From Terriglobus roseus (GTDB lineage Bacteria > Acidobacteriota > Terriglobia > Terriglobales > Acidobacteriaceae), in the NCBI RefSeq assembly GCF_900102185.1, contig NZ_LT629690.1, positions 4,092,001-4,156,000 of the forward strand: a DNA stretch of 64,000 bases, read 5' to 3'. Every line of letters begins with the position of its first letter. Position 1 is the stretch's first letter. Below are positions 13,899 through 40,868 of this stretch, piece after piece. Under the pieces are notes generated by a model. It was not told where the DNA came from. It ran no database searches and saw nothing but the letters and a program-made list of their open reading frames with translations. A program made the position numbers and the translations under genes.

Positions 13899-13929
13899 TT
13901 GCAAAGAGGACACATTCCTGAGGTATGCT
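13899..13929 (+). promoter_or_regulatory. Candidate promoter of the LacI-family gene
   Basis: TTGCAA and TATGCT separated by 19 bases, ending directly at the palindromic operator. The match is weak; it is reported because its position relative to the operator agrees with the better promoters near 15987, 21690 and 21757. Confidence 0.35.
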
Positions 13930-13952
13930 TTTTCGGAAACCTTTCCGAAAAA
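13929..13952. promoter_or_regulatory. LacI-type operator, site 1 (upstream of the lacI-family gene)
   Basis: TTTCGGAAA-CC-TTTCCGAAA, arms of 9 bp extending two more T/A pairs. Centre differs from the other sites (ACCT instead of GCGT or ACGC). It is 119 bases before the regulator start, fitting autoregulation. Confidence 0.6.
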
Positions 13953-14070
13953 TGCTTTCTTCGGGTATTGTTTGTCCGTGGCGCCTCCGGGAAGTTTGCG
14001 CCGACTCAAAAACTAAAGACAGGAACTCGCCGGTTTACGAAGCCCAATCTTCCTCCGGCACACGTGATTG

Positions 14071-15102
14071 ATGGTGAAGAACGGAAACCCGGGAACAGGC
14101 GGTGTGACACTGCAGGCGGTGGCAGAAGCCGCAGGTGTCACCATTGCAACCGCATCGCGATCCCTGAACGATGCCTACGGCGTGCATCCAGAAACCAAGG
14201 CGCGCGTGCAGCGTATTGCGGAAGAACTGCACTACAAGCCCAACCGTTTTGCGCGCGGACTGGTAACGGGCCGATCGGACATGGTGGGCCTCATCGTCAG
14301 CGATATCCGTAACTCATACTTCGCTGAAGTGGCGCGTGGCGTGGAAGATGCCGCACTGGAATCCGGCCGCGACGTAATGCTGTGCAACAGTGATCTGAAC
14401 GCTGAACGCCAGATGAAATCCGTGAACTCGCTGCTGGACAAGCGTGCGGAAGCCATCATCATGAACTCGGTCGCGTCGCTTTCGCGTGAGGATCAGCAGA
14501 AGATTGCCGCAGCGGGCGTGCCCATTGTGCTGCTGAATCGCCCCGGACGCGACACCACCTTCTCCACGGTGAATGCTGATAACGACAAGGGCGGACGGCT
14601 GGCCGCAGAATGTCTTTTGCGTAATGGGCATCGCAAGGTCATCAACCTCACAGGCCCGAAGAAACACGCCAACCTTTCCCGCCGCTCCACCGCATTCATT
14701 AAGACCATGGAAGCGCAGCGTGGCGCGCGCGTGAACACCATCCACACCATCAACACCATGCAGGGTGGCTACGAAGCGGCGATTGAAATCTTCCGCAATC
14801 TCAACGGCGAAACCGCGATTGCGACCGGCAACGACGCGATGGCATTTGGCGTGATGCGTGCTGCCATTGAAGCAGGCGTGCGGATCCCGCGCGATATCTC
14901 ACTCATCGGTTTTGACGACGTTGAGTTGTCCGCCATGACCTTCCCACCGCTCACCACGGTTCGCCAACCGAAATATGAAGTCGGTCGTGCGGCGGTTGAG
15001 ATTGTGCAACAGCTACTTAGCAGTGGCTCGAAGACGCCCATCCATCGAGTGGTGGATGTGGAACTGGTGGAACGCTCATCGGTGGCAAAACTCACCAAGT
15101 AA
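14071..15102 (+). CDS. LacI-family transcriptional regulator
   Basis: A 343-residue repressor. The N-terminal LacI helix-turn-helix is clear: VTLQAVAEAAGVTIATASRSLND, then the hinge helix around LHYKPNRFARGLVTGRSD; residues from about 65 onwards form the periplasmic-binding-protein-like effector domain, with VGLIVSDIRNSYFAEVARGVED and GFDDVELSAM. The ligand is probably a sugar or sugar acid, judged from the neighbours. The ATG is preceded immediately by an in-frame TTG. A palindrome of the type this family binds lies upstream, and six related ones stand in front of the genes of the next 8 kb, which makes this the likely local regulator. Confidence 0.92.
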   Translation: MVKNGNPGTGGVTLQAVAEAAGVTIATASRSLNDAYGVHPETKARVQRIAEELHYKPNRFARGLVTGRSDMVGLIVSDIRNSYFAEVARGVEDAALESGRDVMLCNSDLNAERQMKSVNSLLDKRAEAIIMNSVASLSREDQQKIAAAGVPIVLLNRPGRDTTFSTVNADNDKGGRLAAECLLRNGHRKVINLTGPKKHANLSRRSTAFIKTMEAQRGARVNTIHTINTMQGGYEAAIEIFRNLNGETAIATGNDAMAFGVMRAAIEAGVRIPRDISLIGFDDVELSAMTFPPLTTVRQPKYEVGRAAVEIVQQLLSSGSKTPIHRVVDVELVERSSVAKLTK

Positions 15103-15109
15103 AAGCCAA

Positions 15110-15132
15110 AAGCCCCGGAGAATCCGGGGCTT
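15110..15132. terminator. Bidirectional terminator between the LacI-family and SDR genes
   Basis: AAGCCCCGG-AGAAT-CCGGGGCTT, a 9-bp perfect stem between convergent genes, 8 bases past the regulator stop. The flanking T content is modest. Confidence 0.7.
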
Positions 15133-15151
15133 CTGCTTGGATGAAATCCGA

Positions 15152-15880
15152 TTATGCCTGAGAAGGAACCATTAGTAGCTCCGTAATGGTGACATGCGCG
15201 GGCGTCTTCATCACGTGGACAATCGTCTCCGCAACATCCTTAGGTTGCAGTGCTTTCTCTAGCGTGTCGGCAGAGAGTTTCTCTGGCCGCTTCTCCACCA
15301 GTTCCGTATTCGTCAGGCCGGGCATGAGGCAACAAGTGCGAATGCCGTTCATGCGCTCCTCGAGGCGGATGGCATGCGCCAGCCCCAACACGCCGCGCTT
15401 GGAAGCCTGGTACGCGGCGCCGGAGAGATCGGCAATCGCACCCGCCGTCGACGAAACAAACACTATGTGCCCTGCTCCTGCTGAACGCATACCCGGCAGC
15501 ACGGCATGCGCCAAGTGAAACGCGCCAGTCAGGTTCACCTCCAGCACCTCATTCCACACCGCAGGCGGCATCACCTTCATCGCGCGTTGCGGCGTATTGG
15601 TACCGCTGGCGTAAACCGCAATCGCGATGTTTCCAATGTTCTTCTCTACATCCGCGACCATCGCCTGCATCTCTTCCAACGAAGTGACATCGGCTTTGCG
15701 CACGTGCAGCGTAATTCCCTCGGAAGCAAGCTGCTGCTTCATGGCGATCAGCCTGTCTTCACGACGCGCAACCGCCACCACCACTGCGCCTTCGCGCGCT
15801 GCGAGCTCCGCCGTGGCCTGCCCAATGCCGCTGGAAGCACCCACCACCAGCACCACTTTCCCCTGAAGCGATTCCGACAT
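15152..15880 (-). CDS. SDR family oxidoreductase with altered NNAG motif
   Basis: A 242-residue short-chain dehydrogenase: GASSGIG (14-20) for the nucleotide, catalytic Ser143/144, Tyr157 and Lys161 (YQASK). The usual NNAG after strand four reads YASG (90-93), with the Asn pair lost. AVARR after the second strand suggests NADP(H). GAGGAG lies 6 bases before the ATG at 15880; the upstream start at 15898 would precede this ribosome site. A LacI-type operator lies about 35 bases upstream, and the divergent gene is the quinohemoprotein, so this dehydrogenase is probably part of the same sugar-oxidation set. The substrate is not known. Confidence 0.88.
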   Translation of the reverse strand: MSESLQGKVVLVVGASSGIGQATAELAAREGAVVVAVARREDRLIAMKQQLASEGITLHVRKADVTSLEEMQAMVADVEKNIGNIAIAVYASGTNTPQRAMKVMPPAVWNEVLEVNLTGAFHLAHAVLPGMRSAGAGHIVFVSSTAGAIADLSGAAYQASKRGVLGLAHAIRLEERMNGIRTCCLMPGLTNTELVEKRPEKLSADTLEKALQPKDVAETIVHVMKTPAHVTITELLMVPSQA

Positions 15881-15915
15881 CCCAACTCCTCTTTGCACGT
15901 CTGCAATCTCAATTT

Positions 15916-15931
15916 TCGGAAGCGCTTACAA
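15916..15931. promoter_or_regulatory. LacI-type operator, site 2 (upstream of the SDR gene)
   Basis: TCGGAAGCGCTTACAA: the core GGAAGC-GCTTAC departs from a perfect palindrome at one position. It lies 36 bases before the minus-strand SDR start. Confidence 0.6.
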
Positions 15932-15986
15932 AGCTACCACTCCCGCCCCGCGAAAGGCGAGGGTATCCGATGTCGCAATACGGAGG

Positions 15987-16016
15987 TTGACAGCCGCGCG
16001 ATGCTTGCCTGAAGAT
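15987..16016 (+). promoter_or_regulatory. Candidate promoter of the quinohemoprotein operon
   Basis: A perfect -35 TTGACA at 15987-15992; the -10 is poor (GAAGAT after 18 bases). Operator site 3 starts 27 bases after the -35, the same geometry as two other promoters of this island. Confidence 0.4.
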
Positions 16017-16019
16017 TCC

Positions 16020-16035
16020 TCGGAAGCGTTTCCGA
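16020..16035. promoter_or_regulatory. LacI-type operator, site 3 (upstream of the quinohemoprotein operon)
   Basis: TCGGAAGCGTTTCCGA, inverted repeat of TCGGAA and TTCCGA around GCGT. It lies 91 bases before the quinohemoprotein ATG. Confidence 0.7.
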
Positions 16036-16125
16036 CACACAGGACCGGCACGAAATCCACACAGGAGAACACGGACGCGGACCGGGCCTTTGGAGGGCCA
16101 GTTCCGGGCTGGATCACCGCAGAAC

Positions 16126-18468
16126 ATGAATCGAAAACAAACCAGCTTCGGCCACTCCGCCACCCGCACCTTGGCTGCAGTGTTCTTTTGCGCCGCGACT
16201 GTTCTAACACTGCCCGCTCAAACGCCATCAGCCGCATCCGGCAAAGCCAAGTACAACAACTTCTGTGTTGGCTGCCATGGGACGGACGGCAGCGGAACGG
16301 AACACGCGCCAAAGCTGGCCGATAACCCCGACCTCCGCGGCAAAGACATTGCACGCATCCACAGCATCATCGCCGCCGGATTTCCCGCACAGGGCATGCC
16401 TCCGTTTGGCAGCATGCCATCCGCAGACATTGATGACCTGGCTGCTTACGTCCGCTCGTTGAACGTCACAGCGTCGGAAGGCACCGCCATCGGCAACGCC
16501 GAAGCAGGCAAACAGTTTTTCTGGAACGACGGCAAGTGCAGCACCTGCCACATGGTGCGCGGTGTGGGTTCCGCAACAGGCCCAGACTTGTCTGATGTTG
16601 GATCGCGCATGAGCGCACCGGCCATCCGCGCAGCACTGACCGCGCCGGACCTGCACATCACACCCGGTTACGAACTGGCCACCGCGATCACGAATGGCAA
16701 AACACTCCGCGGCTATCTGCGCAATCGCACCAACTACGACATTCACCTGCAAGACAAAGACGGCGGCACCATCCATCTGCTGCCGCTCTCGCAAGTAACC
16801 AAGCTAACCGTCGACGATCGCGCCGCAATGAAGCCGCTCACGCTGCCTGAAAAGCAGATGGACGATCTCACCGCGTACCTCGGCAGCCTGACCGGCGTGG
16901 ATGGCCCCATGCCGGAGAAGAACACCGTCGTCACGCCCGGCGCCAGCATCATTGAGTTCAATGAAATCCTGCATCCGCGCAAGGGCGAATGGCCTTCGTA
17001 CAACGGCAAGCTCAACGCAAATCGTTACAGCGACCTGACAAGCATCAACCGCACCAACGTCAGCCAGCTTCTCCTGAAATGGATTGCACCGATGCCTCAG
17101 CTTGGCCTGGAGGCCACGCCCATCGTCGTCGGCGACATCATGTACTTCTCTGGCCAGAATCGCGTGAGCGCGCTGGATGCAAAGACGGGCCGCACCATCT
17201 GGACATGGTTCCGCCCGCCCACATCAGGCCTTGTTGGCGATGCGTCGGTCGGCACGAATCGCGGCGCTGCGGTCTTCCGCGACAAGGTGTACATCACCAC
17301 CGACAACGCGCATCTCATCGCCCTGAACCGTGTCACCGGCAAGCCTGTGTGGGAACAGACCATGCCGGAAGAGAAGATGAAGTACGGTTCCACCGTCGCG
17401 CCCATGATCCTGAACGACACCGTCATCGGTGGTGTCTCTGGCGGCGATTGGGGCGTACGAGGCTTCCTCGTCTGCTACGACGCTGAGACCGGCAAGATGC
17501 TGTGGCGCCACTGGACACTGCCCGGCCCCGGCGAACCCGGCATTGAAACATGGGGACCGGAATGGCCCAAGCTCGGCGGTGGATCAACCTGGCTGCACGG
17601 TTCGTACGATCCCGAAACCGACACGCTGTTCTGGCCAACTGGCAATCCGTGGCCTGACTCCGACGACCGCACGCGTCCCGGCGACAACCTGTACACCAAC
17701 AGCATCCTTGCGATGAATCCGCACGATGGCAAAGTGAAGTGGTACTTCCAATTCACACCGCATGACCTTGCCGACCGCGACGCCGTAGAACCACCCGTCC
17801 TCGTCAACACAACATTCCAGGGCCAGCCACGCAAACTGTTGCTGCACGCCGATCGCAACGGTTTCTTCTACGTCTTTGATCGCACCAACGGCAAACTGCT
17901 GCTGTCGAAGCCTTTCCTGAAGCGCATCAACTGGGCAACCGGCATCGACGCGAATGGCCGCCCCATCCTGAACAAGTCGCTGCCCTCCACCATGCCCACC
18001 AAGCAGCGCAACTGCCCGGATAACGGCGCCAACTGGACCTCCACCGCATTCAGCCCAACAACGCATTGGTATTACATGATGACGATTGAGGCATGCGGCG
18101 ATCCGAAAGCTGCCCCCGGAACGCCCGCAGCACAAGGCCTGCAACAGCGCTTCGTTCGCGCCATCGACATCGAAACTGCCGAAACGAAATGGGAGATTGC
18201 ACAACCCGGGGCGCTTGTTCTGAAGACATGGTCCGGCGTGATCGCCACGGCAGGAGGACTTGTCTTCTATGCCGATCCCAACGGCGCATTCTGTGCCGCC
18301 GATGAGAAGACCGGCAAAATTCTTTGGCATTACGACACCAACGTGGGCATGAAAGGTCCGCCGATGACCTACGCCGTAGACGGCAAGCAGTATGTCTCCG
18401 TCACGGCAGGGTCAACGCTGCTGACCTTTGCACTGCCCGCAACCACCACATCGACCGCAAAGAGGTAA
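16126..18468 (+). CDS. PQQ-dependent quinohemoprotein dehydrogenase with two N-terminal cytochrome c domains
   Basis: A periplasmic alcohol/sugar dehydrogenase of 780 residues. After a signal peptide (to about residue 35), heme-binding CVGCH (47-51) and CSTCH (138-142) mark two cytochrome c domains, then a small beta-rich linker, and from about 285 an eight-bladed PQQ propeller with the tryptophan-docking repeats (ALDAKTGRTIW, ALNRVTGKPVW, YDAETGKMLWRHW, MNPHDGKVKW, ADEKTGKILWHYD). Electrons from the oxidised substrate would pass from PQQ to the hemes and the respiratory chain. The usual quinohemoprotein ADH carries one C-terminal heme domain, so this order is different. It heads a three-gene operon (isomerase after 5 bases, then MFS). 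The ATG at 16126 is preferred to a TTG at 16090. Confidence 0.9.
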   Translation: MNRKQTSFGHSATRTLAAVFFCAATVLTLPAQTPSAASGKAKYNNFCVGCHGTDGSGTEHAPKLADNPDLRGKDIARIHSIIAAGFPAQGMPPFGSMPSADIDDLAAYVRSLNVTASEGTAIGNAEAGKQFFWNDGKCSTCHMVRGVGSATGPDLSDVGSRMSAPAIRAALTAPDLHITPGYELATAITNGKTLRGYLRNRTNYDIHLQDKDGGTIHLLPLSQVTKLTVDDRAAMKPLTLPEKQMDDLTAYLGSLTGVDGPMPEKNTVVTPGASIIEFNEILHPRKGEWPSYNGKLNANRYSDLTSINRTNVSQLLLKWIAPMPQLGLEATPIVVGDIMYFSGQNRVSALDAKTGRTIWTWFRPPTSGLVGDASVGTNRGAAVFRDKVYITTDNAHLIALNRVTGKPVWEQTMPEEKMKYGSTVAPMILNDTVIGGVSGGDWGVRGFLVCYDAETGKMLWRHWTLPGPGEPGIETWGPEWPKLGGGSTWLHGSYDPETDTLFWPTGNPWPDSDDRTRPGDNLYTNSILAMNPHDGKVKWYFQFTPHDLADRDAVEPPVLVNTTFQGQPRKLLLHADRNGFFYVFDRTNGKLLLSKPFLKRINWATGIDANGRPILNKSLPSTMPTKQRNCPDNGANWTSTAFSPTTHWYYMMTIEACGDPKAAPGTPAAQGLQQRFVRAIDIETAETKWEIAQPGALVLKTWSGVIATAGGLVFYADPNGAFCAADEKTGKILWHYDTNVGMKGPPMTYAVDGKQYVSVTAGSTLLTFALPATTTSTAKR

Positions 18469-18473
18469 CGCAC

Positions 18474-19514
18474 ATGCAGAACGAAACAGAATGGGGAATG
18501 TCACGCCGATCGCTTCTGCTGGGCGCAGCCATGGCAGGCGCAGCACAGGCTTTTGGAACAACGATGCGTGCTGAATCCACACGCAACATCACACCTACAC
18601 CACCCGCCGGCCCGTTGAAGGTTTCCATCTTCTCCAAGCATCTGCAGTTCATGCCCATTGGAGAAGCTGCGATTGCCGCAAAGGACATGGGTTTTGACGC
18701 AATCGATATGACCGTGCGCGCAGAAGGCCACGTGCTACCGGAGAACGTCACCACCGATCTGCCGAAGGCCGTTGCTGCTGTGCGCAAAGCCGGACTGGAA
18801 GTCTCCATGGTCAGCACGGAGATCACGCCCGCCACCATGCCCATGGCGAAGAAGATTCTGGAAGCAGCCGCCGGCGAAGGCATCCATCACTATCGCTGGG
18901 GCGGCCTTAAGTACGAAACGAACAAGCCCATCGTGGCGCAATTGGATGCGATGCGTCCCGGCGTACGCGCACTCGCAGACCTCAGCCAAAAAACCGGCGT
19001 TGCCGCTATGTATCACACACACTCCGGCCCGGAAGCCATTGGCGCAACCATCTGGGATCTGTGGGAGATGTTCCGCGGAATCGACCCCAAATGGTTTGGC
19101 TTCAACTACGACATAGGCCATGCCACGGTGGAAGGCGGTTACGGCGGATGGATTTGCACCAGCAAACTATCTGCAGACTGGATGCGTGGTATCGCGCTGA
19201 AAGACTTCCTGTGGGCGCGCAATGAAAAGGGTTCAACGCATGCAGATCCCTATGACAAGAGCCTCGGCGCCGCTGGCGCATTTGTGCCGCACTGGTGCCC
19301 CATCAACGAGGGCATGGTGCACTTCGATCAGTTCCTCGGCATCGTAAAGGCGCAGAACTTCAACGGCCCGCTGCAACTGCACTTTGAATATCCGCTCGGC
19401 GGCGCAGAGAACGGCAAGACCACACTCACGCTGCCGCGCGAACAGGTGCTGGCCACTATGAAGAAGGATCTGCAAGCCGTGCGGGCGCACCTCGCAAAGC
19501 AGGGACTCGCATGA
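18474..19514 (+). CDS. Exported sugar phosphate isomerase/epimerase-like TIM barrel protein
   Basis: A 346-residue AP-endonuclease-2-like (xylose isomerase-type) TIM barrel. The N-terminus has a Tat-like signal: SRRSLLLGAAMAGAAQA with twin Arg11-Arg12, so a periplasmic location is likely. Barrel strands are recognisable from LKVSIFSKHLQF onwards; VSMVSTEITPA, HHYRWGGLKYE, AAMYHTHSGP, FGFNYDIGHAT, GIALKDFLW and LQLHFEYPLGG carry the Glu/Asp/His residues that usually hold the divalent metal. Proteins of this fold epimerise or isomerise sugars and keto-sugars, or cleave them; the exact reaction is unknown. The gene sits between the quinohemoprotein and a sugar-acid transporter and overlaps the latter by 4 bases (ATGA), so it is translationally coupled. 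Confidence 0.85.
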   Translation: MQNETEWGMSRRSLLLGAAMAGAAQAFGTTMRAESTRNITPTPPAGPLKVSIFSKHLQFMPIGEAAIAAKDMGFDAIDMTVRAEGHVLPENVTTDLPKAVAAVRKAGLEVSMVSTEITPATMPMAKKILEAAAGEGIHHYRWGGLKYETNKPIVAQLDAMRPGVRALADLSQKTGVAAMYHTHSGPEAIGATIWDLWEMFRGIDPKWFGFNYDIGHATVEGGYGGWICTSKLSADWMRGIALKDFLWARNEKGSTHADPYDKSLGAAGAFVPHWCPINEGMVHFDQFLGIVKAQNFNGPLQLHFEYPLGGAENGKTTLTLPREQVLATMKKDLQAVRAHLAKQGLA

Positions 19515-20773
19515 GCACATCAGCAATCACCAATCCATCCGCAGAAACAACTGCGACATTCACGTTGAGCCGTATGCGATGGGCCATGCTTGCCATGGCC
19601 TTTTTCGCTACGGTGATCAATTACCTGGATCGACAGACGCTCTCCGTTATGGCGCCTGTGCTGTTGGATCAGTTCCACATCTCCGCAGGCACGTACAGCC
19701 AAATCATCTTCGCTTTCATGCTGGCGTACACCATCATGAACGGCATCTCCGGGCCGTTGCTGGATCGTCTCGGCAGCCGCAAAGGATATTCGCTAACCAT
19801 TGCATTCTGGTCTGCCGCAGAGATTCTCACCAGCCTTACCACTGGTGCATTCTCGCTCGGCATCTATCGCTTCCTGCTGGGTATGGGCGAGGCGGGCAAC
19901 TATCCCGCAGGCGTAAAAGTCATCGGCGAATGGTTCCCCGCACGTGAACGTTCGCTTGCTTCGGGCATCTTCAACAGCGGTGCGGCCATCGGAGCCATGC
20001 TCGCACCACCACTGCTCGCGTGGTGTGCCATTAGCTTCGGATGGAAGGCATCGTTCGCCATCGTTGGCGTACTCGGATTCATCTGGATCGCGGTGTGGCT
20101 GCTCATCTATCGCACGCCACCCGTCAATCCTGCAGAGCCAACACTTCCCGCGCCATCCGTCCTCTCGCTCATTCAGGATCGCTTCGTGTGGCAGTTCACA
20201 CTGAGCAAGGTATTCGCGGATCCCGTCTGGTACTTCTACACCTTCTGGTTCCCGCAATACCTGAAGATCGGTCACGGCTACACACTGGCGCAGATTGGAA
20301 AGATTGGTTGGATTCCCTTCGCCACCGCAGGCCTTGGCAACCTCGCTGGAGGCTTTCTAACCGCACTCATCATGAAGCGCGGTATTAACGATCAGACGGC
20401 ACGACGCATCAGCGTTCTGTTCTTCTCCGCATGCATGGTCTGCGCATTTCCGGCGGCCATGGTCAGTAGTGCGGCACTCAGCATCGCACTGATCTCCACG
20501 GCTACCTTCGGCTACAGCGGCGCGCTGGCAAACGTACTCGCCATTCCGCGTGACCTGTATCCCAAGAACGCTGTCGCCTCGATCTGGGGTCTGGCCAGCA
20601 TGGGTTCCGGCTTCGGCGGCATGGTCTTCAGCCTGTGCACCGGATGGCTCGTCGATCACTACTCATTCCGGCCAGTGTTCATGCTGTTTGGAACGCTGCC
20701 CATCATCGCAGCAACGCTCGTCTGGACACTGCCGCGCATTGCGCGCCAGCGTGAAAGTGCTCCGGCCCTCTGA
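19511..20773 (+). CDS. MFS transporter, ACS family (hexuronate-type)
   Basis: A 420-residue inner-membrane carrier with 12 predicted spans. The first helices carry the anion:cation symporter signature ATVINYLDRQTLSVMAP, then LLDRLGSRKGY (the loop 2-3 motif) and YRFLLGMGEAGNYPAGVKVIGEWFP, which are found in ExuT-type hexuronate and related sugar-acid transporters. Import of an aldonate, uronate or keto-acid made by the upstream quinohemoprotein is a reasonable inference. The ATGA overlap with the isomerase gene shows one operon under the site 3 operator. A terminator follows. Confidence 0.88.
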   Translation: MSTSAITNPSAETTATFTLSRMRWAMLAMAFFATVINYLDRQTLSVMAPVLLDQFHISAGTYSQIIFAFMLAYTIMNGISGPLLDRLGSRKGYSLTIAFWSAAEILTSLTTGAFSLGIYRFLLGMGEAGNYPAGVKVIGEWFPARERSLASGIFNSGAAIGAMLAPPLLAWCAISFGWKASFAIVGVLGFIWIAVWLLIYRTPPVNPAEPTLPAPSVLSLIQDRFVWQFTLSKVFADPVWYFYTFWFPQYLKIGHGYTLAQIGKIGWIPFATAGLGNLAGGFLTALIMKRGINDQTARRISVLFFSACMVCAFPAAMVSSAALSIALISTATFGYSGALANVLAIPRDLYPKNAVASIWGLASMGSGFGGMVFSLCTGWLVDHYSFRPVFMLFGTLPIIAATLVWTLPRIARQRESAPAL

Positions 20774-20797
20774 CCTCCGAACGGATGGCCACATTAC

Positions 20798-20829
20798 AAA
20801 GGGCGCCCCACAGGGCGCCCTTCTTCTTT
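20798..20829. terminator. Bidirectional Rho-independent terminator
   Basis: AAAGGGCGCCC-CACA-GGGCGCCCTTCTTCTTT: 8-bp GC stem plus flanking A/T runs, between the MFS gene and the convergent SDR gene. Confidence 0.88.
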
Positions 20830-20845
20830 GTCTTCGTTCGGCAAC

Positions 20846-21613
20846 TTACGCCATGAAGAATCCGCCATTGATCTCAATCACCTGGCCATGGATGAACGTG
20901 GCCTGATCGCTGGACAGAAACACCACCAGATCCGCAATCTCTTCCGCCGTTCCCAGCCTGCCGATCGGCGTTGCAGCACGCACACCATCCAGGCCTTCCT
21001 GCGTAGAGAACGAGCGGTGATAACCCGTATCTACCGTGCCAGGCGAGATGCAGTTCACACGCACACCCTGCGGCGCAAACTCCTTCGTCAGCCCCTTCGT
21101 CATCGTCGAAACCGCAGCCTTCGCCGACGAATAAGCCAGCGCACCCAAGCCGCCGCCGAAGCGTGCAGCCACTGACGACATGTTGATGATCACGCCGCTC
21201 TTGCGTTCGCTCATGCCACGCAGCACCGCCTGCGACAGGAAGAAGGCGCTGGTGAGATTCAGCATCATCACCTTCTCCCAAAGCTCATGCGTGAATTCCA
21301 ACACGCGCGTGCGCTGCACAAGCGATCCAGCGTTGTTCACCAGGATGTCGATCTTCCGCCCCTCGGCATAACGGCAGAGAACCTGCGTTCCCTCCCATGA
21401 GACCAGGTCGGCCTGCACGATCTCGCCATCGGAACCGGCAGCACGGACCTGCTCCAGAACCTTCTGCGCCTCGTCGGCCTGCGTGTTGTAGTGGATCAGG
21501 ACGTGGGCTCCCGCGGCTGCCAACGCCACTGCCGAGGCGGCGCCAATGCCGCTGCTGGCGCCGGTCACCAGCGCAATCTTTCCATTCAGTTGTTGTGTCT
21601 GCAAGCTGCTCAT
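20846..21613 (-). CDS. SDR family oxidoreductase (gluconate/3-oxoacyl reductase-like)
   Basis: A classical SDR of 255 residues: TGASSGIG (17-24), NNAG (93-96), catalytic Ser146/147, Tyr161 and Lys165 (YSSAK), SPGTVDTGYH in the substrate loop, and the C-terminal TFIHGQVIEINGGFFMA typical of FabG-like tetramers. HYNTQAD after strand two points to NADP(H). The start at 21613 gives a normal N-terminus; the frame is open to 21670 through operator site 4. Two LacI-type operators lie upstream and bracket a good promoter. It probably reduces or oxidises a keto-sugar intermediate of the island; the substrate is unknown. Confidence 0.88.
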   Translation of the reverse strand: MSSLQTQQLNGKIALVTGASSGIGAASAVALAAAGAHVLIHYNTQADEAQKVLEQVRAAGSDGEIVQADLVSWEGTQVLCRYAEGRKIDILVNNAGSLVQRTRVLEFTHELWEKVMMLNLTSAFFLSQAVLRGMSERKSGVIINMSSVAARFGGGLGALAYSSAKAAVSTMTKGLTKEFAPQGVRVNCISPGTVDTGYHRSFSTQEGLDGVRAATPIGRLGTAEEIADLVVFLSSDQATFIHGQVIEINGGFFMA

Positions 21614-21647
21614 AGTTTCAGAAACCAGTCTTTCGTAGACGCCAGAG

Positions 21648-21663
21648 TTGGAAGCGTTTCCGA
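21648..21663. promoter_or_regulatory. LacI-type operator, site 4 (downstream of the SDR promoter)
   Basis: TTGGAAGCGTTTCCGA; core GGAAGC-GTTTCC. On the minus strand it starts 2-3 bases past the candidate -10, where bound protein would block transcription start. Confidence 0.7.
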
Positions 21664-21665
21664 CG

Positions 21666-21695
21666 ATCATCCCTGCTGCATGATTCCTTTGTCAA
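21666..21695 (-). promoter_or_regulatory. Candidate promoter of the SDR gene
   Basis: On the minus strand: TTGACA (21695-21690), an 18-base spacer and GATGAT (21671-21666, four of six consensus bases), followed at once by operator site 4. Confidence 0.5.
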
Positions 21696-21701
21696 TCCAC
21701 A

Positions 21702-21717
21702 GCGGAAGCGTTTCCGA
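21702..21717. promoter_or_regulatory. LacI-type operator, site 5 (between divergent promoters)
   Basis: GCGGAAGCGTTTCCGA; core GGAAGC-GTTTCC. It lies just upstream of the minus-strand -35 and about 40 bases upstream of the plus-strand -35, so it could influence both directions. Confidence 0.65.
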
Positions 21718-21756
21718 CAAAATTGTGCCACAGGTGCCTTTCGGGTGACGATTTTA

Positions 21757-21786
21757 TTGACAACACATGTCGACAATGCGTATTTT
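21757..21786 (+). promoter_or_regulatory. Candidate promoter of the TonB receptor gene
   Basis: TTGACA at 21757-21762, an 18-base spacer, TATTTT at 21781-21786. Operator site 6 begins at the last base of the -10. Confidence 0.5.
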
Positions 21787-21801
21787 CGGAAACGCTTCCG
21801 A
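21786..21801. promoter_or_regulatory. LacI-type operator, site 6 (at the TonB receptor promoter)
   Basis: TCGGAAACGCTTCCGA: exact reverse complement of site 3. It covers the expected transcription start of the receptor gene. Confidence 0.7.
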
Positions 21802-21832
21802 TTCTGCCAGATCCGCGCAGCCTTCTGATCGT

Positions 21833-21848
21833 CGAAAACGCTTCCGGA
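21833..21848. promoter_or_regulatory. LacI-type operator, site 7 (degenerate)
   Basis: CGAAAACGCTTCCGGA: right half matches the other sites, left half is degenerate. It lies 47 bases beyond site 6 and about 40 bases before the receptor start. Confidence 0.45.
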
Positions 21849-21888
21849 ATCCCGGCAAAATCAAAACATTCAGACGGAGCAGACTCCT

Positions 21889-24800
21889 ATGACACCGCTG
21901 CGCTTTTCCCGGAAGGCCATCCTCTCTGTATCGCTTGCACTTGCCTGCGTCACCGCGACCCACGCACAGTCCAACACCGGCACCATCCTCGGCACCGTGC
22001 AGGACGACACCGGTGCCGCCATTCCCGGCGCAACCGTAACCATTCGCAACCTGGGCACGGGTGAAACACGCACCGCCACCTCTGACAGCAGCGGCGTTTA
22101 CAACGTTCCCAACCTGCAAATCGGCCATTACTCCATCACCATTGCGCATGACGGTTTCACCTCAGCGCAGATTGCCGATACCGAGCTGCAAGTGGCGCAA
22201 CGCGCCACCATCAACCCTGTACTTCACGTCGGCGCAATCTCTGACAAGGTCGACGTCATCGCGTCGCAAACACCGTTGCTGAATGAAGCGTCTTCCGCTG
22301 TGGGCCAGGTCATTGATACGCAGACGGTGCAGAACGTGCCGTTGAACGGCCGCAATTTCTGGCAACTCACGCAGCTTACGCCGGGCGTCAGCTTCATTCA
22401 GGGTGGACAGAACATTGCCTCAGGCGGAACATCCATCCGCGCCAGCGCAGTCAACGTCAACGTGAACGGCCTGTCGCCGTCGTGGACCGGCTGGTATCTC
22501 GACGGCTCGAACATCACCGAATCGCAGCTTGGCGGCACGCTCATCTCGCCCAACGTCGACGCATTGCAGGAATTCAAGGTGGAATCCAGCAACATGCCCG
22601 CCGACTACGGTCACAGCCCTACCATCGTGAACGCCACGCTGAAGAGCGGCACCAACGCTTACCACGGCACGGCATACGAGTTCCTGCGCAACAACGCCTT
22701 CGACGCGAAGAACTACTTCTACGTTCCGCCCGCAGGTTCCACACGCCGCAACCAGCCGCTGCATCGCAACCAGTTCGGCTTCGCTGTCGGCGGCCCCATC
22801 GTGAAGGATCACACCTTCTTCTTCCTCGACTTGCAATCCACGCTGTACACGCTGGGTCAGAATTTTGACAACATCGTGCCCAGCGCTGCGATGCGAGGCG
22901 GAAACTATCAGGGCACGGGCATCACTCTGAAAGACCCGCTCACGGGACTGGCGTTTGCGAATAACACCATCCCATCCAACCGCATTGTCCCGCAGGCTCA
23001 GTTCTTCCTGAAGTATCTGCCGGCTGCGAACCAGGTTCGCGGCACCGTCTCTCACGCGGTACTGACAAACCGCCTGAAGCAGCAACTGGATCAGGGCGAT
23101 ATCCGCATTGACCAGACCTTGTTCTCAAAAGATCGCCTCATGGGTCGCTACTCCATCACCGACAACCATGAGACAGACCCGAACGCCTTCCCTGCTCTCG
23201 GCGGCTTCCCGCTACGCAGCCGAGGCCAGAATGTGGTGCTTCGAGAGACGCATATCTTCTCGCCGAAGTGGCTGACGGAAGCGCAGTTCTCGTACTACCG
23301 CAGTGTCTTCTTCTTCACCAGCTCACTGCAGGGTCAGAACATCAATCAGCAGGCTGGCATCAAGGGACTGGAAGGCCTCTCGCCCGATCAGTACCAGGGC
23401 ATGCCGCAACTCAGCATCTCCAACTACGCCAGCTTCACCGGCCAAAGCGGCAACTACCCCAAACAAAACAAGATTCGTTCGTGGCAGTACGTTATCCGCT
23501 CCACATACACCAGCGGCAAACATGAAATTCGCTTCGGCTACGAAAACTTCCACGACACCAACACCTATCTCTTCGGTTCAAACTCAGTCGGCACGTTTAC
23601 CTTCAGCAACTCCTACTCAGGCGACAACTTCGCGGACTTCCTGCTCGGCTATCCCGCATCCGCCCTGCGCAGCTACTTCCGCCAGCCCTGGGGCAACTAC
23701 GTCAACTTCCAGACCATGTACGTGCAGGACGACTACAAGGCCACATCCAAACTCACGATCAACGCTGGCCTGCGCTACGAAATCAATCCCTTCTACAACG
23801 GCATCAAGGGCCAAACCTCTGGCTGGAACCCTGCCAATGGCAAGCTAGTCATCCCGTCCGATTTCTCCATGAACGCGCAGCCCGGCACCCCCTATCTGTA
23901 CTCGCTGTTCTCAGACCGCATTCAAGGCAGCAACGACCTTGGTCTGCCAACATCCATTCGTCCCGCAGCCCGCGTCAATATGGGTCCACGCATTGGTCTT
24001 GCTTACAAGGCAGAAGAGAACACTGTTCTACGCGCAGGCTACGGCATCTTCTATCTCTTCCCGGATAACAACGCCATCAACAACACGCAAAACGTCGTTC
24101 CGTTCATCGCATCGCAAACTCTGAACAACAACAACACGCCAAACTCAGCGAATGTACGCGTTCCCAACCTCACCTTCGGCGACTTCTACTCCGGTCAGCC
24201 CATCGTCGCCGCCAACACCAGCAACTCAGTCTGCTCATTTGGATATGTAGCGCTCTCCTGCTCGCAACCCAGCCTCACCACCATGGATCTCCGCGTGAAG
24301 AATACGTACGCGCAGGAATACAACCTGGCCGTGCAGCATCAGTTTGGCCGCAAAATCTCACTGGACGTGGCGTACGTTGGCAATCGCACACAGCACATCG
24401 TGCAGCCCTTCCAGATCAACGATCCGTTCCCCGGCGCGGGCACCATCCAAACGCGTCGTCCCTTCCCGCAGTGGGGCACCATCGGCCTCTCAAAGTACGC
24501 TGGCAACGCCAACTACAACTCACTGCAAACCAAGTTTGAAGCGCGCGCCTTCAACGGAGCCACATTCCTCGCCTCGTACACCTACGGAGCCTGCCTGACC
24601 GACGGCACCTTCAATGGCCAGACACGCGAGCAAAGCAGCAACATCCGTTATTACGGCCCCTGCAATTACGACATCAAACACAACTTCGTCACCAGCGGCC
24701 TGTATGAACTGCCCTTCGGCAAAGGCAAGGCGTTTGCCTCGGGCGCAAGCGGTGTGGTGCAGGGTCTCATTGGCAACTGGAGCCTCTCCGGCGTAGGCAC

Positions 24801-25239
24801 CATGCAATCCGGCCTGCCCTTCACGCTGACCATCAGCACCGACCAGGCAAACACCGGCCTCGGTGGCCAGCGCCCCAACCTCACCGGTCGCCCGCAGATG
24901 GTTCGCAAACCTACCTGCTGGTACTACGACTCGCGCAACGCCTCCTGCCCGGCAGGTGGCACGGATATGTTCACTGTCCCCGCGCAATACACCTACGGCA
25001 ACGGCGGTTCCAACACCATGCGCAACGACGGCTTGGTGCAGTTTGACGTCTCCGTTCTGAAGAAGGTCCCTTTCGGCGACACCCGCTCGCTGGAGTTCCG
25101 CGGATCGTTCTTCAACGTCTTCAACCACACCACCTTCGCCACGCCCGTGACGAATATCGACTCGTCCTCGGCAGGCCAGATTACGTCAACGCTCAATGCC
25201 GCCCGTTCCATCGAACTGGCAGCAAAAATCTACTTCTAA
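21889..25239 (+). CDS. TonB-dependent receptor, Oar-like, with N-terminal carboxypeptidase-regulatory-like domain
   Basis: An outer-membrane protein of 1116 residues. After the signal peptide (to about Gln27) comes a CarboxypepD_reg-like domain (about 28-115, GTVQDDTGAAIPGATVTIRN), then a plug with VPLNGRNFWQLTQLTPGV and a beta-barrel that ends in Phe (AAKIYF), the usual signal for outer-membrane assembly. Such Oar-type receptors are abundant in Acidobacteria and are thought to import large carbohydrates or peptides with TonB-ExbB-ExbD energy. The ligand cannot be read from sequence, but two LacI-type operators in front of the gene tie it to the sugar-oxidation operon. GGAG stands 9 bases before the ATG. 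Confidence 0.93.
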   Translation: MTPLRFSRKAILSVSLALACVTATHAQSNTGTILGTVQDDTGAAIPGATVTIRNLGTGETRTATSDSSGVYNVPNLQIGHYSITIAHDGFTSAQIADTELQVAQRATINPVLHVGAISDKVDVIASQTPLLNEASSAVGQVIDTQTVQNVPLNGRNFWQLTQLTPGVSFIQGGQNIASGGTSIRASAVNVNVNGLSPSWTGWYLDGSNITESQLGGTLISPNVDALQEFKVESSNMPADYGHSPTIVNATLKSGTNAYHGTAYEFLRNNAFDAKNYFYVPPAGSTRRNQPLHRNQFGFAVGGPIVKDHTFFFLDLQSTLYTLGQNFDNIVPSAAMRGGNYQGTGITLKDPLTGLAFANNTIPSNRIVPQAQFFLKYLPAANQVRGTVSHAVLTNRLKQQLDQGDIRIDQTLFSKDRLMGRYSITDNHETDPNAFPALGGFPLRSRGQNVVLRETHIFSPKWLTEAQFSYYRSVFFFTSSLQGQNINQQAGIKGLEGLSPDQYQGMPQLSISNYASFTGQSGNYPKQNKIRSWQYVIRSTYTSGKHEIRFGYENFHDTNTYLFGSNSVGTFTFSNSYSGDNFADFLLGYPASALRSYFRQPWGNYVNFQTMYVQDDYKATSKLTINAGLRYEINPFYNGIKGQTSGWNPANGKLVIPSDFSMNAQPGTPYLYSLFSDRIQGSNDLGLPTSIRPAARVNMGPRIGLAYKAEENTVLRAGYGIFYLFPDNNAINNTQNVVPFIASQTLNNNNTPNSANVRVPNLTFGDFYSGQPIVAANTSNSVCSFGYVALSCSQPSLTTMDLRVKNTYAQEYNLAVQHQFGRKISLDVAYVGNRTQHIVQPFQINDPFPGAGTIQTRRPFPQWGTIGLSKYAGNANYNSLQTKFEARAFNGATFLASYTYGACLTDGTFNGQTREQSSNIRYYGPCNYDIKHNFVTSGLYELPFGKGKAFASGASGVVQGLIGNWSLSGVGTMQSGLPFTLTISTDQANTGLGGQRPNLTGRPQMVRKPTCWYYDSRNASCPAGGTDMFTVPAQYTYGNGGSNTMRNDGLVQFDVSVLKKVPFGDTRSLEFRGSFFNVFNHTTFATPVTNIDSSSAGQITSTLNAARSIELAAKIYF

Positions 25240-25369: not shown

Positions 25370-26359
25370 ATGGCGTATTTTCTGGCGATTGATGCGGGCG
25401 GCACAAAAACGGACTTTGTACTGGCCGATGAAACACGCACGCTGGCGCGGCAGCGCACCGGCACCATCAAGCGTCTTCGCACCGATGCAGATACAGCCCT
25501 AAAGAACCTGGAAGAAGGCCTTCGTGGCCTCACCGCGCAGAGTGGCATTGCCATGTCATCCGTGCTGCGCACCTGCGTAGGCACAGCAGGCGAGACCGTT
25601 CCCATGGTCGCCGATTGGCTGCGCGAAACCATCGCAGAACGCGTCAGTGGACAACTATTGCTTCTGGGCGATGTTGAGATCGCGCTCGACGCCGCCTTCC
25701 GTGGCGGCCCTGGCATTCTCGTACTGGCAGGAACTGGCTCCAACGTTGCGGGCCGCACACCTTCAGGCAAGATGGCCAACACCGGTGGATGGGGTCCTGT
25801 GCTCTCCGATCAGGGTTCCGGCCATGCCATTGGCCTGCGCGCCATCCGATCCGTATTCATGGCCATTGACGAAGGCCGCACCACGGCTTTGCAACAGGCC
25901 GTGATGGATTTCTGGAATCTTCCCTCGCTCGATCTGTTAATTGAATACGCGAACCGCACACCCGCACCGGATGTCTCGCGACTCGCGCAGCTTGTGTACA
26001 GCGTGGCGCAGCACGGCGATCCCGTTGCACAGGAAGTATTGAAAGCTGAAGGCGAAGCGCTTGCTCATCTTGTGCGTCTGTTGATTCGCAAGCTGCAAAC
26101 ATTGCAGGGCGATCCGGCTTTCGTTCCGCAGCTTGCATTTGCAGGCAGCATCATGGAACGCGTGGTGCCCGTGCGCGAAGCATTGATTGCATCGTTGCGC
26201 AAAGATTTTCCGTCGCTGCAAACGCGCGATGGCGTGGTTGATCCGATTGAGGGAGCGTTGTGGCGCGCACGCGACCAGCAGGCATTTGAAGCACGCGCAC
26301 ATGCAATCGAACAACGGACCACGGAGTCAGTCGATGCCACCACGGCACAACCTGCTTAG
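25370..26359 (+). CDS. BadF/BadG-type ATPase, probable N-acetylglucosamine kinase
   Basis: A 329-residue protein of the ASKHA (sugar kinase/actin) fold. FLAIDAGGTKTDFVLAD is the phosphate-1 loop; VLAGTGSNVAGR near residue 122 and GGWGPVLSDQGSGHAIGLRAI are the phosphate-2 and substrate segments seen in the BadF/BadG/BcrA/BcrD family that includes eukaryote-like GlcNAc kinase. Phosphorylation of GlcNAc or another amino sugar in the cytoplasm is the best guess; glucosamine is an alternative. Its 3' end overlaps the next gene by 26 bases, so the two are co-transcribed. No ribosome site is obvious before the ATG. Confidence 0.82.
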   Translation: MAYFLAIDAGGTKTDFVLADETRTLARQRTGTIKRLRTDADTALKNLEEGLRGLTAQSGIAMSSVLRTCVGTAGETVPMVADWLRETIAERVSGQLLLLGDVEIALDAAFRGGPGILVLAGTGSNVAGRTPSGKMANTGGWGPVLSDQGSGHAIGLRAIRSVFMAIDEGRTTALQQAVMDFWNLPSLDLLIEYANRTPAPDVSRLAQLVYSVAQHGDPVAQEVLKAEGEALAHLVRLLIRKLQTLQGDPAFVPQLAFAGSIMERVVPVREALIASLRKDFPSLQTRDGVVDPIEGALWRARDQQAFEARAHAIEQRTTESVDATTAQPA

Positions 26360-28502
26360 CTCTCTTGCCTTCACCAGTGTTCTCATCGCAACATCAGCCT
26401 TCGCACAAACAGCCGCAGACCCGCATGCAACATGGCGTGCCTACGGCGGCTCAGAAGACGGCACGCAATACTCATCGCTGAAGCAGATCGACCGAACCAA
26501 CGTCAGCCATCTGCAGGAAGCATGGCGCGTCTCCACTGGCGATGGACGTGGTTACGTCTTCAATCCGCTCATCATCGGCACAACGATGTATGTGCTGGCA
26601 CAGGACAACAGCATTGTTGCGCTGGACGCAGGCACCGGCAAGCAACTGTGGTCGCACCCGTTGCAGGCGAAGACACCACTGGTTCCCACGCGCGGCCTTG
26701 CGTATTGGCAGAGCACAGATGGCAAGGATCAGCGACTCATCTTCGCAGTCGACAATCAGCTCCGCGAAATTAACGCGGCCACCGGCAAATCCATCACCAG
26801 CTTCGGCAAAGAAGGCAACGTCGATCTACGTGAAGGCCTGGGCCGCGACATCAACAAGCTGACGCTGGTGCAGTCTTACAATCCTGGCCGCGTCTTCGGC
26901 GACCTGATCATCCTTGGCTCGGCCACCAACGAAGAATACGATTCCGCACCCGGCGACATCCGTGCCTACAACGTGCTCACCGGCAAGATGACGTGGATTT
27001 TCCACACCATTCCGCATCCCGGCGAATATGGTTACGACACATGGCCGAAGGACGCATGGAAGACCGTGGGCGGAGCGAATGCATGGGGCGGCATGGCGCT
27101 CGATGTAAAGCGCGGAATCCTGTACGTTCCCACCGCCAGCCCCAAGTACAACTTCTACGGTGCCAATCGCACCGGCTCAAACCTCTATGGCGACTCGCTG
27201 ATTGCCATCAACGCAAACACCGGCAAGCGCATATGGCACTTCCAGATGGTGCACCACGACATCTGGGATTACGACAACCCAAACACACCCATGCTGCTCA
27301 CCGTGAAACACAACGGCAAGGATGTGGACGTTGTCGCACAGACCAGCAAGACAGGCTACCTGTGGGTCTTTGATCGTGTAACCGGCAAGTCGTTGTGGCC
27401 CATTGAAGAGAAACCCGTACCGCAGGATGCAATGCCCGGCGAACACGTTTCGCCCACGCAGCCTGTACCTACAAAGTTAGAACCGTTCAGCCGTCAGACG
27501 TTCACCTCGAAAGACCTGAGCCCGTACCTCTCACCCGAAGAACACGCTCTACTCAAGAAGCAGATTGACGCAGCGCGCAACGAAGGCATCTTCACACCGC
27601 CCACAACCAAGGACACGGTAGAGATGCCCGGCAACAACGGCGGTGTGAATTACGGTGGCGCAGCCGTCGATCCAACGCACGGCTATCTTTACGTCGTATC
27701 CAAAGACCTTCCTGCAATGCTGAAACTGCAACTGCCTCCCGCAGTGCCAGTCGGCAATACTCCGGAAGCACGCGGCGCAGGCGTTTATGCCAACACATGC
27801 AGCCTGTGCCACGGCACCAATCGCGAAGGCAAAGCACCCGTCATCCCCACGCTGGTCGACATCAACAAACGACTCACCGAAGAGCAGATTCGTCAGACTG
27901 TTCGCTACGGCAAGAATCAAATGCCATCCTTCGGCAGCCTGCCCACTGCGCAAGTCGACGACCTGATGAAGTTTCTGAAGAATCCGGGTCTGCCCATCAT
28001 TGAGAGCACAAACGCTGTACCCTCGGGCGATCCCGCAACACTGCGTTATCGCAGCGGCTTCGGCTTCATGTTTGCGGAAAGCGGATTGCCAGTCATCGCT
28101 CCGCCGTGGGCCACACTCACTGCATACGATCTGAACACCGGCAATGTCCGTTGGAAGATTCCACTGGGTGAAGTGCCGGAGCTGGCAGCCAAAGGCATCA
28201 CCAACACCGGCGCGCATTTTCCAAAGGTGAACCCTGTCGTCACAGCAGGCGGACTCATCTTCACTGGCACACGCGATCGAAAGATTCGCGCACTCGATGC
28301 GGCCACCGGCAAAGTCCTGTGGGAGCACGAAGTGGACGCCGCACTGGAAGGCATGCCTGCCATCTACGAGATCAACGGCAAGGAATACGTTGTCTTCTGC
28401 GCCGCCGCTCGCGCCACCACATACACACACGCCGTCCCCGGACATCCCGCAGCGCAGGGTCCAATCCCCGGCGCATACATCGCATTTACCCTGCCCAACT
28501 AA
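26334..28502 (+). CDS. PQQ-dependent quinohemoprotein dehydrogenase with an internal cytochrome c domain
   Basis: A periplasmic quinoprotein of 722 residues with a signal peptide (MPPRHNLLSSLAFTSVLIATSAFAQ). Propeller repeats (ALDAGTGKQLW, YNVLTGKMTWIFH, INANTGKRIWHF, VFDRVTGKSLW, DLNTGNVRW, ALDAATGKVLWEHE) are interrupted near residues 480-560 by a cytochrome c domain with CSLCH (489-493) and a Met ligand candidate in NQMPSFGSL. Its layout resembles sugar-oxidising quinoproteins of the mGDH-like group with an inserted heme domain. GGAG precedes the ATG, which lies inside the kinase gene. The end overlaps the convergent sulfatase gene by 17 bases. The substrate is probably a sugar or polyol. 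Confidence 0.9.
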   Translation: MPPRHNLLSSLAFTSVLIATSAFAQTAADPHATWRAYGGSEDGTQYSSLKQIDRTNVSHLQEAWRVSTGDGRGYVFNPLIIGTTMYVLAQDNSIVALDAGTGKQLWSHPLQAKTPLVPTRGLAYWQSTDGKDQRLIFAVDNQLREINAATGKSITSFGKEGNVDLREGLGRDINKLTLVQSYNPGRVFGDLIILGSATNEEYDSAPGDIRAYNVLTGKMTWIFHTIPHPGEYGYDTWPKDAWKTVGGANAWGGMALDVKRGILYVPTASPKYNFYGANRTGSNLYGDSLIAINANTGKRIWHFQMVHHDIWDYDNPNTPMLLTVKHNGKDVDVVAQTSKTGYLWVFDRVTGKSLWPIEEKPVPQDAMPGEHVSPTQPVPTKLEPFSRQTFTSKDLSPYLSPEEHALLKKQIDAARNEGIFTPPTTKDTVEMPGNNGGVNYGGAAVDPTHGYLYVVSKDLPAMLKLQLPPAVPVGNTPEARGAGVYANTCSLCHGTNREGKAPVIPTLVDINKRLTEEQIRQTVRYGKNQMPSFGSLPTAQVDDLMKFLKNPGLPIIESTNAVPSGDPATLRYRSGFGFMFAESGLPVIAPPWATLTAYDLNTGNVRWKIPLGEVPELAAKGITNTGAHFPKVNPVVTAGGLIFTGTRDRKIRALDAATGKVLWEHEVDAALEGMPAIYEINGKEYVVFCAAARATTYTHAVPGHPAAQGPIPGAYIAFTLPN

Positions 28503-30087: not shown

Positions 30088-30128
30088 GTCAGTCTCCCGC
30101 AACAGAATTCAACACATCCGCGTAGAAG

Positions 30129-30842
30129 TCACGCGTGATGCATCAACTCCGCCACCAGGCGAATATCCTCAGCCTCAACGCGAGCCTCGCCCTGCTGCCA
30201 CAACACATCACGAACCTCTTCCGTCTTAGGCTTACGGCGAAACGATCCATGCAGATCAAGTCCCGGGACCTGCGCCAGCAGCGCAGCATTCTGCAGAGAC
30301 ACACCACCACCCGCAGCAATGCGAATCCGGTCCTCCGCAATCTCCGTTAACTCAATCAACATCTCAAGGCCTTCCGTCACAGTAGGTTCTCCACCGGATG
30401 TAAGCACACGACTACAACCAAGATCGATGACCACACGCAACGACTCATGCAGGTCACGCGCAAGATCAAACGCACGATGAAACGTGACAGCGCGCCCATT
30501 CGCAATTCGAATCAACTCCGCTGTCTGCGCCACATCGACAGCGCTATCCGCAGTCAATGAGCCAACAACAATCCCTGCAGCGCCAAGCGATAACGCCATC
30601 TCTGCATCCGCACAGGCCATGCGAAACTCCGCGGCGGAATACACAAAATTGCCACTGCGCGGACGCACCAGTGCATGCACTGGAATGCGTGAGGCTGCAA
30701 TGGCCTCACGCAAAAATCCAACACCAGCAGTAACGCCGCCCTCACTGAGGGCGGCGCACAATTCAATGCGATCGGCGCCACCCGCATTTGCTGCTTCACA
30801 TGCCTGCAGTGTCTCCGCACATATTTCCAGTTCTCGTTGCAA
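30129..30842 (-). CDS. cutC: CutC family TIM-barrel protein
   Basis: A 237-residue CutC protein: LEICAETLQACEAANAGGADRIELCAALSEGG at the start, RPRSGNFVYSAAEF, ADSAVDVAQTAEL, TFHRAFDLARD, VLTSGGEPTV and AAGGGVS in order are all family signatures. The old name copper homeostasis protein rests on weak evidence; the true function is unsettled, and the fold is a TIM barrel that often accompanies glycan-degradation genes. The start is TTG at 30842 with GGAGG 5 bases upstream; no ATG is available nearby. It lies 26 bases after the TIM-barrel gene and 41 bases before the sulfatase, in one operon. Confidence 0.92.
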   Translation of the reverse strand: MQRELEICAETLQACEAANAGGADRIELCAALSEGGVTAGVGFLREAIAASRIPVHALVRPRSGNFVYSAAEFRMACADAEMALSLGAAGIVVGSLTADSAVDVAQTAELIRIANGRAVTFHRAFDLARDLHESLRVVIDLGCSRVLTSGGEPTVTEGLEMLIELTEIAEDRIRIAAGGGVSLQNAALLAQVPGLDLHGSFRRKPKTEEVRDVLWQQGEARVEAEDIRLVAELMHHA

Positions 30843-40860: not shown

Positions 40861-40868
40861 GCCTGACG

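Follow-up and report, generated by a model that had tools for sequence, protein, structure and literature searches.

Background

In the passages of its published description that set out the sux locus of Xanthomonas campestris, a carbohydrate utilization containing TonB-dependent transporter (CUT) locus, the LacI-family repressor SuxR is encoded with the major facilitator superfamily (MFS) transporter SuxC, the TonB receptor SuxA and the amylosucrase SuxB, and SuxR represses the sux genes, with sucrose as the inducer (PMC1790865). A survey of LacI-family regulators, the main text of which covers seven phyla and nowhere contains the string 'acidobacteri', gives CG-centred even palindromes as the norm (1173 of 1303 transcription factors) and autoregulation for 72% of the members surveyed (PMC4052901). 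By title or abstract opening, no such regulon in the Acidobacteria was found among the open-licence matches listed. The DNA analysed here, referred to as the window, is a stretch of 64,000 bp (bases 4092001-4156000) from the single-contig genome of Terriglobus roseus, which has 4,851,966 bases. It contains an island of genes for a LacI-family regulator (lacI), two short-chain dehydrogenases (SDR1 and SDR2), a quinoprotein, a TIM-barrel protein, an MFS permease and a TonB-dependent receptor. Seven intergenic palindromes stand in it, and on the evidence of the sequence they are very probably the operators of the island's own LacI-family protein, the product of the gene at 14071, and mark out its regulon.

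The palindromes and their distribution in the genome

The 16 bp cores of the palindromes start at 13933, 15916, 16020, 21648, 21702, 21786 and 21832 and have, in that order, 1, 2, 0, 1, 1, 0 and 2 mismatches to the pattern TCGGAANCGNTTCCGA. All seven had been listed in a preliminary description of the window, with the small differences that 13929, given there for the first, lies in a longer repeat around the core and that the last core begins at 21832 rather than 21833. They are found before lacI, in the gap between SDR1 and the quinoprotein operon and in the gap between SDR2 and the TonB receptor gene, and all are intergenic in a gene model in which starts were placed by a codon-usage script. 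The site at 21648 is intergenic because the modelled start of SDR2 is 21613 and not the start of its longest open reading frame (ORF), 21670.

The putative operator before lacI (TCGGAAACCTTTCCGA, 13933..13948) has CC at its centre instead of CG, and its core lies within the longer inverted repeat TTTTTCGGAAA-CC-TTTCCGAAAAA. Between SDR1 and the quinoprotein operon there is an operator-like site (TCGGAAGCGCTTACAA, 15916..15931), 35 bp before the modelled SDR1 start, and 104 bp from it the putative operator TCGGAAGCGTTTCCGA (16020..16035), which adjoins the predicted -10 of the quinoprotein operon. The SDR2-TonB gap has three putative operators, here called O1 to O3, and one weaker site. O1 (21648..21663) adjoins the SDR2 -10, O2 (21702..21717) is between the divergent SDR2 and TonB promoters, and O3 (21786..21801) has a 1 bp overlap with the -10 of the TonB receptor promoter. 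The weak operator-like site TCGAAAACGCTTCCGG (21832..21847) has only its right half conserved in the two closest relatives. With up to 3 mismatches there are 9 matches in the window against 3.54 expected, and 1 of 100 shuffled sequences reaches 9. An eighth match, at 15862 and with 2 mismatches, was rejected as an operator since it is inside SDR1.

Genome-wide scans were made with a pattern and a mismatch limit, and with the reversed pattern as the control. The strict form, TCGGAARCGYTTCCGA with at most 1 mismatch, is found 7 times in the genome of 4.85 Mb, with 5 of these sites in the 8 kb island, and its reversed control is found once. From base composition 0.24 sites are expected genome-wide, so that the strict matches are approximately 30 times over expectation, and a rough binomial estimate for such clustering anywhere in the genome is about 1e-10. 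All seven strict places are centred outside genes, although the one at genome position 2357282 overlaps the end of the preceding gene by a few bases. The preliminary description had proposed a genome scan, and the outcome supports its reading of the sites as LacI-type operators.

Conservation and co-occurrence with the LacI-family gene

The relatives compared include G166 and G031, which are of the window's own genus, and G108, G142, G215, G274, G298, G307, G331 and G338, which are of other genera in the same family. The closest named relative of the island LacI, with 79% identity, is encoded at locus L016 from a metagenome-assembled genome of Edaphobacter sp. (Acidobacteriota, Terriglobales); in the rest of the 58 loci identity is 43% or less. 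The window genome, G166 and G031 are close kin and do not count as independent samples.

Within the genus, the LacI is present (E <= 1e-60) in 3 of 19 genomes. All three have seven strict sites each, and of the 16 genomes lacking it 13 have none and three have one; the reversed pattern gives 13 matches in all across those 16. Because the three genomes are closely related and five of the seven sites are in the island, this pattern should be counted as a single association, not as three. Across the family as a whole, a LacI relative is found (E <= 1e-75) in 11 of 398 genomes. The whole island with operators is kept in G166, G031, G274 (80% LacI identity, another genus) and L016. Both G274 and L016 retain genes for the LacI, SDR1, quinoprotein, TIM-barrel protein, MFS permease, SDR2 and TonB receptor and have three sites each, and in both a ThuA-type gene has been inserted ahead of that for the quinoprotein; the L016 locus stops within the TonB gene. 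In G298 (LacI 58-59%) the LacI gene and a TonB gene (65% to that of the window) are divergently oriented with two weak sites between them, and one exact site lies downstream of the LacI gene, before another gene. In G108 (LacI 50%) a LacI-MFS-SDR2 run and a TonB gene (31% to that of the window) diverge, with three sites, on both sides. Strict counts for the eight genomes of other genera are five in G274, three of them in the island, one each in G298, G108 and G142, and none in the other four. The G142 match and two of those in G274 are outside the LacI locus, and their few predicted neighbours are unrelated to the island genes. Away from the island, G274 also has TTCGGAA/TTCCGAA-like repeats in a short array (L140, about 1470-1580; G274:C1 near 1010035), and one repeat of this array fits the motif.

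The seven sites had been described as alike, which holds for part of them. Those at 16020, 21648 and 21786 are widely conserved, with counterparts in G166, G031, L016 and G274, but the 21832 site is conserved by half, and 13933, 15916 and 21702 have counterparts in G166 and G031 only. The 16 bp of 13933 and 15916 are identical in these two close relatives. In L016 and G274 no counterpart of 13933 (at <=2 mismatches), 15916 or 21702 was found. O1 and O3 stand 138 bp apart in the window, as they do in G166, G031 and L016, and 134 bp apart in G274. The seven sites of the window and a further 24, taken from six other loci, were combined into a count matrix of 31 sites. It gives T-C-G-G-A-A-R-C and the complement of this, and its G, A and A do not vary; the sites were chosen at <=2 mismatches, and the matrix is thus biased towards the pattern. 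The motif at <=2 mismatches is absent from the 3.1 kb loci of the other seven LacI domains of the genome and present at the locus of the island LacI itself. That the LacI encoded at 14071 is the regulator had been put forward in the preliminary description, and the co-occurrence of motif and LacI across genomes supports it.

Predicted promoters

Promoters were scored out of 12 by counting agreement with TTGACA and TATAAT, and the -10 was allowed to end anywhere between 2 bp within the operator and 8 bp ahead of it. Candidate promoters reach 9 for the quinoprotein operon and 10 each for SDR2 and the TonB receptor; a score of 9 is attained at 0.45% of intergenic positions of the window, counting both strands. 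The predicted quinoprotein operon promoter, TTGACA-N18-GAAGAT (15987..16016, plus strand), ends 3 bp before the operator at 16020, and its boxes are the same in L016 and G274. For SDR2 the prediction is TTGACA-N18-GATGAT on the minus strand, with the -10 beside 21648, and for the TonB receptor it is TTGACA-N18-TATTTT, with the -10 overlapped by 21786. A TTGACA box with a -10-like hexamer thus abuts a site at three of the five island promoters. Over all loci, 19 of 36 rows of site and gene reach a score of 9 (8/18 and 11/18 in two sets), including a non-orthologous promoter in G298, though many of the 36 are orthologues and cannot be taken as independent. When an operator follows immediately on the -10 it covers the start of transcription, the classical position for a repressor. 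The geometry of the predicted promoters is fitting for repression.

Weighing of the explanations

Several results weigh against the LacI at 14071 as the binder of all these sites. The genome encodes seven further LacI proteins, eight in all. The promoters of lacI and SDR1 score just 7.5 and 6, values attained at 5.6% and 60% of intergenic positions. Looser forms of the motif are at control level: TCGGAANCGNTTCCGA with <=2 mismatches has 31 places against 39 for the control and GGAARCGYTTCC with <=1 mismatch has 96 against 105, so that the sites at 15916 and 21832 mean little by themselves. Autoregulation would not be general, as L016 and G274 have no site at <=2 mismatches before lacI. Among the more distant LacI relatives, G307 and G338 (48%) have one two-mismatch site each, which is weak, before a TonB gene (29% to that of the window); G142 (45%) has one weak site; G331, with two LacI copies (58% and 53%), has a doubtful site close to SDR2 and another site within coding sequence; and no site was found at the LacI locus of G215. 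The two G331 copies are about 1 kb apart (G331:C1:1824942-1827975, L132) beside MFS, SDR2, GH92 and GH42-like genes, and the locus has no operator that clearly belongs to this type.

It is unlikely that another of the eight LacI proteins is the true or main binder, with the island LacI a bystander or sharing the sites. The number of such proteins in the genome would allow it, two of them (at L075 and L081) carry Arg at the same place in the recognition helix as the island LacI, a place we take to be important, and strict copies of the motif stand at unlinked TonB genes too. Against this, it is the island LacI that the motif tracks across genera, and the 3.1 kb loci of the other seven are free of it at <=2 mismatches; the surroundings of one of these, L165, were scanned in part and gave no hint of a rival regulon. 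Less probable still is an activator or dual regulator in place of a simple repressor. The best solved relative of the island LacI is 1zvv, 'Glucose-resistance amylase regulator', which we take to be CcpA, such a regulator like Cra, and other top matches are named catabolite control protein A; the sites at 21702 and 15916 are also away from any recognisable -10. The best conserved operators, however, adjoin a -10, which is the place of a repressor and not of an activator. That the sites are terminators or chance palindromes is scarcely credible. The 13933 site is part of a long inverted repeat after a TGT gene and weak matches occur at control frequency, but the strict matches are in excess, clustered and conserved. 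As a terminator the 13933 repeat was set aside: by eye, no terminator scan having been made, no run of T follows it, and its core is unchanged in the two close relatives.

With the LacI at 14071 as a repressor, we infer binding, repression, the ligand, and the metabolic steps and their order as follows. Free of ligand, the protein would occupy the operators that closely follow the -10 boxes of the quinoprotein-TIM-MFS operon, SDR2 and the TonB receptor gene, and also those near lacI and SDR1, so that transcription would be blocked. A ligand, probably a sugar or sugar acid, would come in by way of the TonB receptor and MFS permease and release the LacI. Uptake across the outer membrane, periplasmic oxidation, transport across the inner membrane and cytoplasmic SDR and isomerase steps would then be switched on together.

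Sites outside the island

The preliminary description had called the regulon local. Operators do stand before the regulator and its neighbouring genes, but two strict copies are upstream of unlinked TonB genes, and therefore the regulon may not be purely local. The site at 1508410 is between a TonB gene and a divergent gene for a FadR-type GntR regulator, a family assigned by reading the translation by eye, with no family search. In G166 this site is an exact match. The strict sites of G031 do not include it, and another strict copy lies there at C1:1346035. In the same gap (L082:5380-5430, approximately 1508380-1508430 of the genome) the strict site is beside a second palindrome, CCTATTGTATAGG, which suggests control by two regulators. 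The site at 2357282 precedes the modelled start of another TonB gene by about 320 bp and is identical in G166 and G031. Upstream of that gene (L083:7086-7300, genome 2357085-2357299) there are also three imperfect palindromes in exact 18 bp steps and a separate perfect palindrome, CTGAAACGTTTCAG, conserved in three genomes, which is perhaps the operator of a different LacI. In five LacI-less genomes the orthologues of this TonB gene (69-74% identity) have upstream regions free of the motif at <=3 mismatches, as predicted; this is weak support, because those regions are not alignable to that of the window genome. It is tentatively suggested that a small dispersed regulon has the island LacI as its hub and consists of the island and the unlinked TonB genes at 1508410 and 2357282. 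If so, one inducer would open several gates in the outer membrane and, along with them, a divergent quinoprotein oxidation route that possibly does not use PQQ (pyrroloquinoline quinone).

There are 24 places in the genome with exactly two mismatches, and those in the island were retained solely for their position and conservation. The place at 4366072 (CCGGAAGCGTTTCCGG), beside a paralogous quinoprotein gene, was not counted since it is in predicted coding sequence. The intergenic places at 4003680, 4174461, 4313659, 3087991 and 4057405 were also set aside, such matches being at control frequency and the scanned neighbours mixed: M61 peptidase and GFO/IDH, DUF3300 and alpha/beta hydrolase, and M19 and SASA at the first three, to which the neighbour scan was confined. 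At genome position 4621647 (L122:3148-3163), TTGGAAGCGCTTCCAC has 3 mismatches but contains the motif's 12 bp core exactly; it lies 93 bp ahead of an MFS gene and is a possible further target.

Genes of the island and their neighbours

The gene content given in the preliminary description was confirmed by a Pfam scan of nine proteins of the island area. The LacI-family regulator (14071..15102, plus strand, 343 aa, ATG start) has an N-terminal helix-turn-helix domain (PF00356, 4.3e-15) and a periplasmic-binding-protein-like sensor domain (PF13377, 7.1e-32), both over the Pfam cut-offs, and is under the cut-off of every NCBIfam model matched. SDR1 (15152..15880, minus strand) matches PF00106 at 1.3e-47, its start being from the codon model. 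The operon on the plus strand begins with the 780 aa PQQ-type quinoprotein (16126..18468; PF01011 2.3e-72), which has an N-terminal cytochrome c region (PF00034, PF13442). It continues with a xylose-isomerase-like TIM-barrel protein (18474..19514; PF01261 2.9e-22; start from the codon model, the longer ORF being from 18324) and an MFS permease like sugar-acid transporters (19511..20773; PF07690), which matches TIGR00893 at 3.7e-69, under the cut-off, and has the D-galactonate transporter 6e9n as its best solved relative (8.2e-41). SDR2 (20846..21613, minus strand; PF13561 8.7e-55; longer ORF to 21670) is nearest to FabG-like and to glucose and gluconate dehydrogenase-like enzymes. The TonB-dependent outer-membrane receptor (21889..25239, plus strand, 1116 aa) matches PF25183 (8.2e-222) and PF13620 and is presumably of the Oar type. 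In the quinoprotein leader, window positions 16107-16118 read GGCTGGATCACC, which resembles what we take to be the 3' end of 16S rRNA; the likeness is probably due to chance, because G166 and G031 read GGCTGGATGACC.

The quinoprotein region aligns over 470-490 residues with quinohemoprotein and quinoprotein alcohol dehydrogenases and with TIGR04528, 'acido-empty-quinoprotein group A'. It differs from these in being under both NCBIfam cut-offs (462.6 bits of 650 for TIGR04528 and 433.5 of 480.05 for TIGR03075), in having its cytochrome c at the N-terminus and in having, when aligned to 6zcw_A, no Cys pair at the Cys-pair position of that structure. A vicinal Cys pair over the PQQ is typical of methanol and ethanol dehydrogenases. 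The alignment to 6zcw_A does preserve the GDN motif and a W, and the protein combines a PQQ beta-propeller with cytochrome c (PF01011, PF00034). A genome search for pqqC gave no match and is uninformative, as the control likewise matched nowhere; pqqE gave a match under the cut-off only, the same as in 14 of 14 controls, and one PqqD-domain ORF is present. The relatives of the MFS permease and SDR2 would fit a sugar or sugar-acid substrate. Sugar oxidation, the role by which the island had been named, is plausible and no firmer than that, because the quinoprotein is under the model cut-offs and without the Cys pair and the pqqC and pqqE results are uninformative. The quinoprotein itself is divergent. 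It is probable that the island takes up and processes a carbohydrate.

Downstream of the receptor gene and in the same direction, genes for a BadF-type kinase/ATPase and for a second PQQ protein, which has a cytochrome c inserted in it (25370..28502, plus strand; family scan and codon model) adjoin the TonB gene in G166 and G031 as well. They are possibly co-transcribed with it, and the motif scan of the window found no operator of their own. In the second PQQ protein (26187-28502) the cytochrome c domain sits within the propeller region, with PQQ at residues 83-516, cytochrome at 528-597 and PQQ_2 at 643-728, counted from the ORF start at 26187. The neighbouring stretch 28486-41924 is a second carbohydrate-type locus, with genes for a sulfatase, TIM barrels, an M81 protein, another PF25183 TonB receptor, GFO/IDH/MocA oxidoreductases and a ROK protein nearest to Mlc/NagC, under the cut-offs. 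It has no match to the LacI motif at <=3 mismatches.

Comparison with known systems

Acidobacteria are abundant in soil, and to our knowledge the cargo and regulation of most TonB receptors of this kind are poorly known. With one of them as the query, there are 35 to 165 first-look candidates per genome in the genus. A LacI with a defined putative operator, promoter geometry and gene set kept in more than one genus is a handle on the role of receptor and quinoprotein. The regulatory logic itself is textbook; the interest lies in a phylum that is little explored, in comparative evidence that is clean and in the two possible TonB targets far from the island.

The island LacI has the domain order of CcpA, RbsR and PurR, which are among its best matches, and differs from them in being under all NCBIfam cut-offs (for RbsR, 240 bits against 382). 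As in the regulons described in the main text of the LacI-family survey, the sites are even palindromes of the 16-22 bp range with a central CG, upstream of gene starts, and the frequent autoregulation, local regulons and several sites in divergent gaps reported there would have their likeness here (PMC4052901). With sux the island shares a LacI protein, an MFS transporter, a TonB receptor and catabolic enzymes in one locus. It differs in its PF25183 receptor, its quinoprotein with cytochrome c, its TIM-barrel protein and two SDRs, and in belonging to another phylum, and it is not filed as a sux locus because no amylosucrase is among the nine proteins scanned by Pfam. As far as can be read from the sequence, the island is a convincing new example of a LacI regulon with the well-known architecture of LacI protein, MFS transporter and TonB receptor, as in sux.

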